A DNA stretch of 38,805 nt from a virus, in the IMG/VR virus record IMGVR_UViG_3300015194_000008, positions 1 to 38,805 of that record; one strand, given 5' to 3'. This document shows, in pieces, positions 65-38,805 of the stretch. Made by a program: the position numbers and the translations under genes. Under the pieces are notes generated by a model. That model saw only the letters and a program-made list of their open reading frames with translations. It was not told where the DNA came from and did no database searches. Position 1 is the stretch's first letter, and every line of letters starts with the position of its first letter.

Positions 65-310
65 ATGGCAACATCAACAGCATCAAATCATCACGAATTT
101 AGACCAAAGGTAGAGATAAAAGCGAAAAATCCTGTGTATCAAGACAGAATGTATATCAACGGATTCTTGGGATTTATCTCAACGACTTACAAAAAAGAAA
201 TGATTAGTTGTGATGGCTATGAAGAAATATGGACTTGTGCGTTTTGTGAGCAACCTTTTGAACACGAATATCACAGTCCTAGAGTTATTAGAACAGATAG
301 AATTAACTAA
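65..310 (+). CDS. Small hypothetical protein, 81 aa
   Basis: Not recognised. It is a soluble, mixed-charge protein with one CxxC pair (CAFC, residues 58-61) followed by HEYH, a possible partial zinc site. The ATG follows an A-rich stretch (AGATATAAAGATAT) that recurs almost unchanged before the next gene at 360, so the two probably share a translation-initiation style with no Shine-Dalgarno sequence. It is probably one of the last genes of the rightward early operon that leaves the window at 38805. Confidence 0.6.
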   Translation: MATSTASNHHEFRPKVEIKAKNPVYQDRMYINGFLGFISTTYKKEMISCDGYEEIWTCAFCEQPFEHEYHSPRVIRTDRIN

Positions 311-359
311 CCCCTCCCCAGCAATAAAGGGGGAGATTAGTAGCTAGATATAAAGATAT

Positions 360-764
360 ATGAAGAAGAAAGAAGTAATACCCTTTAAAGAAATTAGAGC
401 CAGCATGGGACTATTTGATTTTCAGGTTATCTGTATCATGGGAGACTATAAGCATGTAAATAAATATATGGCCTGGAAGTTTGATAGCCCTGATTTTGAT
501 ACAGAAGGATATGATATGGGCTACGATTGTAGAGGTAAGTGTTTCTATAAAACTGGCTATGTCCCTGTCGTTTGGATTCCACGAAAGCCAAAAACTCCAA
601 GAGAATATGCCACGCTTGCTCACGAATGTTTGCACGCCATCTTTCACCTATTTGAGTGGGCGTCAATTCCAATCACCAGAGATACCGAAGAAGTAATGAC
701 GCACTCAATGGCTCACCTTATAAATGAATTTCTCTCCCCTCCCAAGAAAAAGCCCACTAAGTAA
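360..764 (+). CDS. HExxH metallopeptidase-like phage protein
   Basis: 134 aa. Residues 83-95 read YATLAHECLHAIF, an HExxH zinc-metallopeptidase signature, followed about 20 residues later by DTEEVMTH, whose acidic residues could supply a third ligand. Many phages encode small proteins of this layout; the substrate is unknown. It has no signal peptide, so it should be cytoplasmic. The start sits behind the same AGATATAAAGATAT leader as the 65-310 gene. Its last codons overlap the leftward gene ending at 757 and the terminator of that gene. The metalloenzyme-like call is good; actual proteolysis is unproven. Confidence 0.65.
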   Translation: MKKKEVIPFKEIRASMGLFDFQVICIMGDYKHVNKYMAWKFDSPDFDTEGYDMGYDCRGKCFYKTGYVPVVWIPRKPKTPREYATLAHECLHAIFHLFEWASIPITRDTEEVMTHSMAHLINEFLSPPKKKPTK

Positions 765-2909: not shown

Positions 2910-3257
2910 TTATTTGTCTAATTTTTCTTTAAGAAACTCCGCAGCTTGAATGTTGAACCAAACAGCTGCGGCGTGATCTTCATCCCCTTCGTCTTGAAAC
3001 CACTGCATGAAATGACGAAAGGCGGAAGATTTAAATCGAATATATTCTTCCTCGGAGTCGGCTTTCTCCCAGTTTCGATAACCGTATTTCGCCATGCCCC
3101 TTTCGAGTAACTCTGCGAAGCGTGTTAGAAGTGGGTATCTCATTCCAACCGGCATAATTAAATCGTATCGAGGTTTCCCCTCCTGAGTATCCCTCTTCAT
3201 GCCGGAATCAAATTCTTGCCTGACTCCTGAATCTTTTGTAATAAAGTTTTGTTTCAT
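2910..3257 (-). CDS. dATP/dGTP diphosphohydrolase N-terminal family protein (DUF5664-like)
   Basis: 115 aa. The run RQEFDSGMKRDTQEGKPRYD, then FAELLERGMAKYGYRNWEKA, then RFKSSAFRHFMQWFQDEGDE followed by DHAAAVWFNI is characteristic of the phage family formerly called DUF5664 and now named for dATP/dGTP diphosphohydrolase, with a MazG-like helical fold and acidic metal-binding residues. It probably adjusts purine dNTP pools. No adenylosuccinate-synthetase-like partner that would suggest a 2-aminoadenine genome is seen. It is length-typical and lies directly downstream of the spliced phosphoesterase gene. Family assignment is from motif memory. Confidence 0.7.
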   Translation of the reverse strand: MKQNFITKDSGVRQEFDSGMKRDTQEGKPRYDLIMPVGMRYPLLTRFAELLERGMAKYGYRNWEKADSEEEYIRFKSSAFRHFMQWFQDEGDEDHAAAVWFNIQAAEFLKEKLDK

Positions 3258-3300
3258 CTTCTTACTATAAAAAGGGAGTCGTAGTGACCTCCCAAGTCCA

Positions 3301-4817
3301 CTACCAGGATACGGATATATCGTGGTGATCAGACATAAACTTCACTTTCGGGCTACCAAGCTTGGAGGGTGGCAATCCAAAAGTTTTGGCGTAACCTCCG
3401 TATTTCAGGTATGAACCTGTAATAAGGAGATGCTTCTTGTGTTCAACTACAGAACCGTTGTGAACTCGCTGCATCAGAACTGACGAGGAGATACATTTGT
3501 GAGCCTTTTTCTGTTATCTCCAATTACTTGGAGTGTCGGACTTTCTCTTCATCCTTGATTTTGCTTCCTTTTGAAGCATTACAGTGTGAACACAAAGGCT
3601 GTAAGTTTGTTATGTGATTCGTACCACCCCTAGAGATGGGTACGATGTGGTCTATCTGTATTTTTTCAGATGAACCGCATTTCGCACACTTACCGCCAAA
3701 AGCCCTCAACTTCTTTAACCAAGCAATCTTATCTATCACACCAAGAGTTTTGTTTCTTCTCAACTGGCTATCTAATCTTTTGACCAGTTTTCCTTTCTCC
3801 GTTTTTCGGTACTGACGAGAACTTTTTAGATTCTCTCTCTGTATCCTTTCGGGGTTAGTTTCTTTGAGAAGATAATATCTTTCTCTCGATTTATCTAACA
3901 GAACTTGCTTGTTCTTAGAATAGTATTCTTGCCAAAGCCCCTTAAAAAGTTCTTTGTGTCGTGAGTAGAATAATCGGTTTTGATGAGTCTGCCGACACTT
4001 CACGGAACAGAACTTTCTGTTGGGTTCTGGTTTGAATGGCTTTTTACAATGTTCACATTGTTTCTCCATAAGTACATATTACATGCATTTGTGGAGAAAA
4101 TCAAGGAGGTTGCCGTCAAGTCTCTACACCTTCCCTTTCGGGCTTGGCTCGGGATTGTCCTTGTTAGGAGTTCCCCGACTTTGACAACGTTTTTTTACAG
4201 AGATTACTCTCTGGGGACACCCTCACGATTTAATGTCCCATTACTACGAGATCTGCATGGAATGGAGCAGCAAGGCGTTCTAATGCTAGTAACGCGGTAC
4301 CGTCGAACTTCGAACCTGTGCGACCGTGAAGGGAGTAAATCGCATAGACTTCGCTCCCAATTTTGAAAGTGTTCCAGCATGCGTCACCGAGGTACGGTAC
4401 ACCGAGCTCGCGCGCGATGACTTTGCTGATGTTGATGCCGGATTCTTTGTACACCCGCTCTTCGTGGTTACCCTGATGGGTTCCGAGAATGAGCTTCAGA
4501 TCGGCAAGGGGCATGAGCCACTCGACCATCTGTTCGTATTGAGACTGTCCGTTGAACGACTGCTGATACACGCCGCCACCGACTGAGTAACGCGTTGCAA
4601 GCTCGATCAGATCTCCCATTAGGAAGACGTAGATCTTGTTCTTAACGCAATAGTCAATCATCGCGTGAAAACGTGGTGCGTCGAACTCCGGAGATCCAAA
4701 GTGGCAGTCTCCGAGGAATACAACTTCAGCGTAGTGCTTTCCGCTTTTAGGCTTGAGCACCTGCTTGTTCAATTTGATAGGGCGACCGGCTATGCGGTCA
4801 TTGGGAACGGTCTTCAT
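3301..4817 (-). CDS. Metallophosphoesterase, two exons (4817-4233 and 3504-3301)
   Basis: Exon 1 encodes 195 aa ending VVMGH; exon 2 begins AHKCISS and ends HDISVSW with a TAG stop (67 aa), giving a 262-aa protein. Calcineurin-like phosphoesterase motifs run in order: GDCH (D37, H39), GDL (D69), GNHEE (N116, H117), SLHG (H164), and GH|AH (H195, H197) formed only by splicing. Exon 2 has the family-typical tail VVEHKKHLLITGSYLKYGGY. Expected to hydrolyse a phosphodiester or phosphomonoester; substrate unknown. The ATG has GAGG upstream; the leader carries a boxA-like element at 4836-4885 and a promoter at 4941-4949. Without splicing the protein would lack the last metal ligand and stop at TAA just after H195. 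Confidence 0.85.
3505..4232 (-). ncRNA. Group I self-splicing intron, 728 nt, with HNH ORF
   Basis: Core elements are readable on the minus strand. P1: exon GGGACAT pairs with guide GTGTCCC, with the expected U.G pair at the 5' splice site. P10: exon-2 CTCAC pairs with GTGAG beside the guide. P2: CAGAGA-GTAA-TCTCTG. P3: GTTG/TCAA with TTGA/CAAC. P5: TCCT-AACA-AGGA. P6: CCC-GAAA-GGG, after a Q-like CCCGAGCC. P7: GACTT in AGAGACTTGACGG pairs with AAGTC. P9: CTCCAA-GTAA-TTGGAG. The intron ends in G (AAAAAG) before GCTCAC. Splicing is phase 0 and restores GHAHK. P10 and frame restoration together make the splice sites firm. Confidence 0.9.
3524..4069 (-). CDS. Intron-encoded HNH homing endonuclease
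   Basis: 181 aa. An N-terminal zinc finger (CEHCKKPF then CSVKCRQTH, residues 5-29) is followed by a basic Tyr- and Arg-rich helical linker and a C-terminal HNH domain (CAKCGSS, IQIDHIVPISRGGTNHITN, CSHCNASKG, about 127-168). It would cut intron-less alleles of the phosphoesterase gene and spread the intron. The reading frame runs through the 3' strand of P7 and P9 of the intron; its stop codon is in the GTAA loop of P9. It has no obvious Shine-Dalgarno sequence. Confidence 0.88.
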   Translation of the reverse strand: MEKQCEHCKKPFKPEPNRKFCSVKCRQTHQNRLFYSRHKELFKGLWQEYYSKNKQVLLDKSRERYYLLKETNPERIQRENLKSSRQYRKTEKGKLVKRLDSQLRRNKTLGVIDKIAWLKKLRAFGGKCAKCGSSEKIQIDHIVPISRGGTNHITNLQPLCSHCNASKGSKIKDEEKVRHSK

Positions 4818-7190: not shown

Positions 7191-8162
7191 CTAATCTAAA
7201 ATAACGACAAATGAATAGGATTTGCCAACAGCTCCTACTATCCTAGCTACCCCTGTTAGTGTTTGAGTAGTTTTCCCCGTAATTCTAGCTACTCCAGTTA
7301 GAGTTTGAAGGGTAGCTTTGGTAAGTCTGGCCACACCAGTTAATGTTTGAAGGACAGCTTTTTGTAGACGGGCCTTACCAGCTAGAGTCTGAAGAGCCGA
7401 AGCCGTAAGTCTTGCCACTCCAGTAAGAGTCTTTACGACAGTTCCTGTTACCAGAAGGTTGGCTACTCCAGTAAGAGTTTTTGTGGTTTTAGAAGTAAGT
7501 CTAGCAAGTCCTGTAAGCGTCTGTAGTGTGGCGGCTGTTATTCTTGCCTTACCAGTTAAAGTCTGGAGTGTCTTAGCCGTTATTCTGGCAACACCAGTTA
7601 AAGTCTGGGTTGTTTTGGCGGTTATACGGGCTAATCCTGTAAGCGTTTGAGTTGTTAGAAGCCCAATCCTCGCTTTTCCAGTAAGGGTCTGCGTAGCCTT
7701 TGCCGTTATGCGGGCCAATCCAGTTAAGGTTTTGGTGGCATTTGCAGTAATACGAGCAAGCCCCGTAAGAGTTTGCGGGGTAAGCAATCCAATGCGGGCT
7801 TTTCCTGTTAGGGTTTGAAGAGCAGATACTCGCAATCTTGCTACTCCTGTTAAAGTTTGAGTAGCTTTTGCTGTAAGTCTGGCAAGACCCGTTAATGTCT
7901 GAGTGGTTTTGGCTGTAATTCTCGACAACCCTGTAAGCGTTTGGAGAGTTTTGGCTGTTATCCTAGCTCTTCCAGTTAAGGTTTGAATAGCTGAGGCTGT
8001 GATTCGAGCAACTCCCGTTAAGGTTTGGAGAGTAGCCTTTGTAATGCGAGCTACTCCAGTAAGAACCTGTGTAGTAATAACAGTAACCGAAAGAGGTTTG
8101 TTGTTAAACTTGGGACTTCTTAATTGAAAAAATGAAATTTTAGTGGACGGTCTTAGCGTTAT
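7191..8162 (-). CDS. Tandem 14-residue repeat protein, no start covering all repeats
   Basis: The frame is open for 324 codons and holds about 20 copies of a 14-residue repeat, consensus R-I/L-T-A-K-T-T-Q-T-L-T-G-x-A, with one 16-residue variant (NLLVTGTVVKTLTGVA). It ends RIVGAVGKSYSFVVILD. Short Thr/Gly beta repeats suggest a fibrous or beta-solenoid surface appendage; it follows the virion genes. Between the in-frame stop at 8163 and a TTG at 7928 there is no ATG, GTG or TTG, yet about four repeats lie upstream of that TTG. The gene may start at TTG 7928, use an unusual start, or have lost its 5' end beside the HNH remnant. Confidence 0.65.
   Translation of the reverse strand: MTLRPSTKISFFQLRSPKFNNKPLSVTVITTQVLTGVARITKATLQTLTGVARITASAIQTLTGRARITAKTLQTLTGLSRITAKTTQTLTGLARLTAKATQTLTGVARLRVSALQTLTGKARIGLLTPQTLTGLARITANATKTLTGLARITAKATQTLTGKARIGLLTTQTLTGLARITAKTTQTLTGVARITAKTLQTLTGKARITAATLQTLTGLARLTSKTTKTLTGVANLLVTGTVVKTLTGVARLTASALQTLAGKARLQKAVLQTLTGVARLTKATLQTLTGVARITGKTTQTLTGVARIVGAVGKSYSFVVILD
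7235..8070 (-). repeat. 42-bp coding tandem repeats, about 20 units
   Basis: The unit codes for the 14-residue repeat. Nucleotide copies are diverged, mainly at third codon positions, while TLTG and AR(I/L) are kept, showing selection on protein and not a recent expansion. One unit has a 6-bp insertion near 7440-7465. Confidence 0.8.
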
Positions 8163-38560: not shown

Positions 38561-38805
38561 ATGAAAATAACAAAACAAGAAGCATTAGACAAAATAGAAG
38601 AACTTAAAAAGTATGTAGCCGAAGAAGATTTAAAGAAAGAAGAAAAAGTAGTTGGAATAGCAATAAACAGTCGTTATGGCGTTATCAAGTTTCAATCCAC
38701 TAAGACTATTTTTAAGGAGGCTGTTATAGAGGGCAAGGCTTACCTCAGTGATGCTTACCTCAGTGATGCTTACCTCAGTGATGCTAACCTCAGTGGTGCT
38801 AACCT
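38561..38805 (+). CDS. Pentapeptide-repeat protein, cut by the window edge
   Basis: Begins MKITKQEALDKIEELKKYVA with a coiled helix, then GIAINSRYGVIKFQSTKTIF, and from about residue 62 AYLSD-AYLSD-AYLSD-ANLSG-ANL, the A(D/N/Y)LxX pentapeptide repeat that forms a right-handed quadrilateral beta-helix. Such proteins can mimic DNA and act on topoisomerases; here the role is unknown. The repeats are also near-identical 15-bp DNA repeats, which is probably why the sequence stops. The ATG overlaps the end of a 12-codon ORF (38526). Confidence 0.7.
   Translation, partial: MKITKQEALDKIEELKKYVAEEDLKKEEKVVGIAINSRYGVIKFQSTKTIFKEAVIEGKAYLSDAYLSDAYLSDANLSGAN

Follow-up and report, generated by a model that had tools for sequence, protein, structure and literature searches.

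The viral record analysed here (38,805 bases, referred to as the window) very probably contains a mobile group I intron that carries an HNH gene in its P8 loop and interrupts the gene of a phage calcineurin-like metallophosphoesterase. Gene and intron lie on the minus strand. Judging by the sequences compared, the phosphoesterase family of PHROG 7339 is a recurrent intron host.

Interrupted phosphoesterase gene

Exon 1 (4233–4817, minus strand) encodes residues 1–195 of the metallophosphoesterase, ends in VVMGH and matches both Pfam Metallophos (PF00149) and PHROG 7339. The first codon of the intron is TAA, and the unspliced frame stops directly after H195. Exon 2 (3301–3504, minus strand; residues 196–262) begins with AHKCISS, runs for 67 codons to a TAG and provides the metal ligand H197; it is defined by the reading frame, PHROG 7339 and the alignment of homologues. 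The insertion is in phase 0 and separates H195 from A196 within the GHxH motif. Joining the exons results in an open frame of 262 residues and restores the sequence GHAHK, in agreement with the first-pass annotation, which had read the element as splitting GHxH of a calcineurin-like phosphoesterase into VVMGH and AHK.

With the exons joined, the score against PHROG 7339 ("DNA repair exonuclease") is 140.1 bits (1.6e-40) instead of 107.8, and the match crosses the junction. The residues that are invariant among 12 homologues (D37, H39, G68, D69, G116, N117, H118, H164, H195 and H197) are all present in the joined protein, and the predicted spliced product contains all of the calcineurin-like motifs DxH, GD, GNH, H and GHxH. 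"DNA repair exonuclease" is an annotation, and the activity and substrate of the enzyme are putative. Searches of solved structures with the phosphoesterase indicate a weak kinship to SbcD and to the small subunit of archaeal DNA polymerase II. No relatives of the phosphoesterase were found in a scan of bacterial and archaeal genomes.

Intron structure and splice sites

The intron spans 728 nt (3505–4232, minus strand), from TAAATCG to AAAAAG with a terminal G. Its limits are set by Rfam RF00028, P1, P10, the reading frame and a homologue with an empty site. The boundaries are those of the first-pass annotation, which had given the length as 727. RF00028 is the sole good Rfam match anywhere in the window and covers the full model (1–253) with 40.5 bits (E = 4.3e-7 for the whole window, 1.3e-8 for the 1.2 kb searched). 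A default Rfam search of the window returns nothing; the score lies below the gathering score of 50, and the match appears in E-value mode. The low score is probably caused by the HNH ORF of about 0.5 kb that is inserted in the P8 loop.

The internal guide strand of P1, GUGUCCC (4214–4220), pairs with GGGACAU at the end of exon 1 (4233–4239), with a U.G pair at the splice site. The P10 strand GUGAG (4222–4226) pairs with CUCAC of exon 2 (3499–3503) at the 3' splice site AAAAAG/GCUCAC, where the terminal G is present. When the first 70 nt are shuffled, a P1 on its own is obtained in 2.5% of cases and P1 together with P10 in 0.03% (30 of 100,000). Both pairings had been proposed from the letters alone, and they stand.

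P2 (CAGAGA-GUAA-UCUCUG, 4198–4213) and P9 (CUCCAA-GUAA-UUGGAG, 3518–3533) are perfect hairpins with GUAA loops, recognised by sequence and folding and by folding, respectively. P3 is formed by GUUGUC (4183–4188) and GGCAAC (4109–4114). The Rfam alignment, together with the recurrence of the core in viral contigs, places P4 (4174–4178 with 4149–4153), P5 and P6/P6a (4128–4148) within 4128–4178. The same alignment gives the P7 5' strand AGACU (4119–4123), which pairs within 3538–3544, as well as the P8 3' strand and P7 3' strand (AAAAUCAAGGAUGAAGAGAAAGUCC) at 3538–3562. The P8 5' strand UCCUUGAUUUU (4097–4107) pairs with AAAAUCAAGGA (3552–3562), enclosing the endonuclease ORF in the loop; this 11-bp duplex, found by folding, is reached in 7 of 20,000 shuffles.

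Covariation supports the core. When the window intron is aligned with 17 related ones, the P3 pairing is kept in 92% of cells and changes on both sides are seen in 7 of 7 pairs, while the covariation score of the whole structure is reached by none of 500 shuffles. The covariance search that the first-pass annotation had suggested bears out its assignment to group I with the full-length RF00028 match, as do the P3 covariation and P1/P10.

Endonuclease ORF and empty site

Most of the intron is filled by an ORF of 181 residues encoding an HNH homing endonuclease (3524–4069, minus strand), a feature missing from the first-pass description, which was accurate for P1, P10 and the splice sites. The protein retains an intact HNH motif, has CxxC pairs close to its two ends and matches Pfam HNH (PF01844, 2.2e-12), HNH_5 (8e-12) and PHROG 1271 (1e-18). 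Its last codons overlap P8', P7' and P9, so that protein and ribozyme core share sequence. Relatives of the protein comprise one weak match in viral contigs and otherwise distant phage proteins, none of them seen at a phosphoesterase gene. A scan for a promoter of the HNH gene inside the intron gave no site on the minus strand, and its numbers were those of chance.

The first-pass annotation had proposed a search for an uninterrupted homologue. L002, from an IMG/VR phage, is such a gene, with 71% amino acid identity over all 262 residues. It has an exact empty site (CAT/GCA) without a gap, GGGGCAT/GCACAC compared with GGGACAT/GCTCAC at the joined exons of the window. No near-identical pair of phages with and without the intron was found.

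The structure suggests how the element would work. P1 would set the 5' splice site after CAU, where guanosine would attack, and P10 with the terminal G would set the 3' site, the joining of the exons yielding an uninterrupted enzyme. The HNH protein presumably cuts the conserved DNA site of intron-less genes, and recombination would copy the intron in; the endonuclease ORF would in this way explain the placement of the intron. DNA conserved in many phages at the catalytic codons would be the reason for the location, and related phages carry other introns at GHxH and at further conserved motifs of the same gene.

The window and L002 also share a repeat. A hairpin rich in G+C (CCTCCCCAGCAATAAAGGGGGAG...TTAGTAACTAATATAAAGATATGAA), which probably serves as a repeated promoter or leader, occurs once in the window (301–368, minus strand) and five times close to gene boundaries in the sister phage L002 (4766–4794, 5485–5553, 5850–5896, 6347–6386 and 6605–6657). 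Copies from the two phages are 87–97% identical, with matching genes only about 66–69% identical in DNA. Two further repeats are found in the window: tandem 42-bp units coding for a degenerate 14-residue repeat (7244–8086, minus strand), and, right at the record's end, four tandem copies of the 15-bp unit GCTTACCTCAGTGAT (38738–38797).

Introns across the phosphoesterase family

Relatives of the phosphoesterase were collected from viral contigs, giving 111 distinct copies by exact 150-nt core, some of them remote. The searches used peptide patterns lying partly inside the motifs, and would tend to miss rather than favour genes that are split there. Group I introns are present in five of the 111 relatives (L087, L065, L085, L152 and L112). 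The L087 intron (868 nt; 46.2 bits, E 2.8e-10; P1 GGACAU/GUGUCC) has a different HNH ORF and sits at GH/TH, a junction identical to that of the window. In L065 the intron (82 bits, no long ORF) is located at GN/HEE. L085 (55.9 bits) and L152 (33.8 bits, E 1.3e-8) are both interrupted at MGD/L by related introns that carry HNH ORFs. The L112 intron lies at the boundary corresponding to G232/Y233 of the window (T/Y in L112); it is not reported by Rfam and has a core that is 78% identical to that of L065 over 118 nt. In all six introns, including that of the window, the U at the end of exon 1 is paired with G. Five of the six end in G. The L065 intron ends in A (3708) if the frame is kept, which represents a sequence error or an unusual 3' splice site.

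Behind GDxxE, the relatives L129 and L130 contain an in-frame insertion of 330 codons, with Cys as its first residue and GN/T at its end (2080–3069 in L129). The insertion appears intein-like, with a weak Pfam intein match (17.5 bits, E 0.004). Three candidates were set aside. L099 has a whole gene. The same is true for L100, which had looked interrupted by tblastn; its two group I introns (80–333 and 590–826; 92 and 107 bits) are less than 750 bp apart and upstream of the phosphoesterase gene. L116, in which neither a 5' part nor an intron core could be recognised, was not counted.

L087 and L152, which have different intron sites, group together in the protein tree (100/95), far from the window and separated from it by intact genes. 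The window intron has no blastn similarity to the other five introns, which share core similarity among themselves. Since L087 is distant from the window and the cores differ, the same codon boundary seems to have been invaded twice, by two independent intron lineages. A single ancestral insertion followed by loss in many lineages may also explain the shared junction, but is made less likely by the differences in cores and HNH ORFs.

At three of the four intron junctions, the codon just before the insertion (D69, N117 or H195) would encode a metal ligand, by the roles usual in the superfamily. When the 254 codon boundaries are ranked by 18-bp DNA identity over 31 aligned genes, the four junctions take places 1, 8, 13 and 19, and random sets of four boundaries do as well in 3 of 100,000 cases. 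The positions fit ordinary homing into conserved DNA, as the homing model predicts. The effects of ligand codons and of DNA conservation cannot be told apart in this set, and we do not claim metal ligands as such as targets. Insertion sites that span active-site codons are described as frequent in a review, which also reports one rRNA site invaded three times independently (PMC3943268).

Alternative explanations

Could the element be a non-splicing remnant, leaving a pseudogene with a stray HNH gene? The RF00028 score below the gathering threshold would be in line with such decay. However, the core helices are all intact, as are the U.G pair, P10 and the terminal G, the joined frame is open with every invariant residue kept, and the HNH ORF is undamaged. 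We consider a remnant very improbable.

The first-pass annotation had suggested that splicing gates the enzyme. In such a scheme splicing would be controlled and would decide when active phosphoesterase appears, and the unspliced frame, which ends at H195 and lacks H197 and the last 67 residues, would suit it. The same truncation, however, follows from every intron inside any gene. Closely related phages have no intron in the phosphoesterase gene or have one at another position of it, which gives no sign of a conserved switch, and the intron positions are accounted for by DNA conservation. We saw no switch, alternative structure or conditional splicing at the window intron, and there is little reason left to believe in a regulatory gate. 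An equally slight chance is given to a coupling of Mg-dependent splicing to the metal-dependent enzyme, in which introns behind ligand codons would time or limit its activity during infection.

An arrangement in which a free-standing HNH gene is flanked by two distinct genes, one for a short phosphoesterase-like protein and the other a small ORF unrelated to it, would match the listing of exon 1 and the HNH ORF as open frames of their own, but is practically precluded by the continuous frame of L002 over the site, the PHROG 7339 match across the junction and the group I core located exactly between the exons.

Comparison with known elements

A mobile intron in the phosphoesterase gene would mean that self-splicing elements have a further phage gene family among their known hosts. 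Together the relatives form a compact natural series within one enzyme gene, with introns at four junctions, an intein-like insertion at another, and one boundary shared by two intron lineages. Such a series allows a direct test of whether homing endonucleases choose their sites by DNA conservation or by protein function. In phage genomes, phosphoesterases of this kind are likely to be recorded as truncated or absent, because the default Rfam threshold misses some introns with long ORFs.

Among other viral contigs, the P4-P6(-P7) core of the window intron recurs in 4 with an identical P6a and in 37 with a variable one. Introns of this family elsewhere are found in capsid, DNA polymerase, reductase, tape-measure-like and tRNA-like contexts. 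IMG/VR introns and those of the uncultured phage Deep1-GF2-KM23-C739 (capsid) and Rhizobium phage RHph_N3_13 (ribonucleotide reductase) have a similar or identical core, with covarying P3. They differ from the window intron in their host genes (capsid, polymerase, reductase, tRNA-like), and the endonuclease is different or absent.

Further group I introns were seen in several records. In the L002 record, a group I intron of its own (G008:C1:6185-6442, L200; 54.7 bits), followed by an HNH ORF, is apparently inside the major capsid gene. L004, a published phage, has two group I introns (2454–2634 and 3163–3343; 78 and 77 bits) around capsid genes that are annotated separately. Same-core introns apparently interrupt tRNA genes, in anticodon-loop contexts, in the putatively viral, tRNA-rich IMG/VR contigs L016, L017, L018, L032, L036, L040 and L046. 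According to a 2014 review, phage introns were at that time known only from protein-coding genes (PMC3984707).

The window intron has the architecture of a familiar group of elements, with a group I core, an HNH ORF in a peripheral loop and a conserved site in an enzyme gene. HNH-bearing group I introns of this kind are reportedly found in the DNA polymerase genes of SPO1-like phages, Bastille (both among the references of PMC10580990) and Pf-WMP3 (PMC3428280); the host gene in the window is instead a PHROG 7339 metallophosphoesterase. The literature searched, largely that outside the subscription journals, contained no report of a phosphoesterase gene as a group I intron host. To that extent the first-pass view of the gene as an unusual target is correct, although it overlooked that the family has been hit repeatedly.

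In mycobacteriophages, inteins adjoin a conserved motif of the metallophosphoesterase domain in the recombination directionality factor (PMC5050341). These are cases of protein rather than RNA splicing, in a different phosphoesterase protein. Jug phages contain about 18 group I introns per genome, and splicing is reported in RNA, from metatranscriptomes, for 37 of 76 predicted introns (PMC12363816). As in the window, phage genes are split by group I introns; Jug phages are, however, huge gut phages, and the intron hosts named are terL, nrdD and polymerase rather than a phosphoesterase (PMC12363816). Group I introns are common in phages and the kind of element is already known; what looks new is the host gene and the fact that it has been invaded repeatedly.
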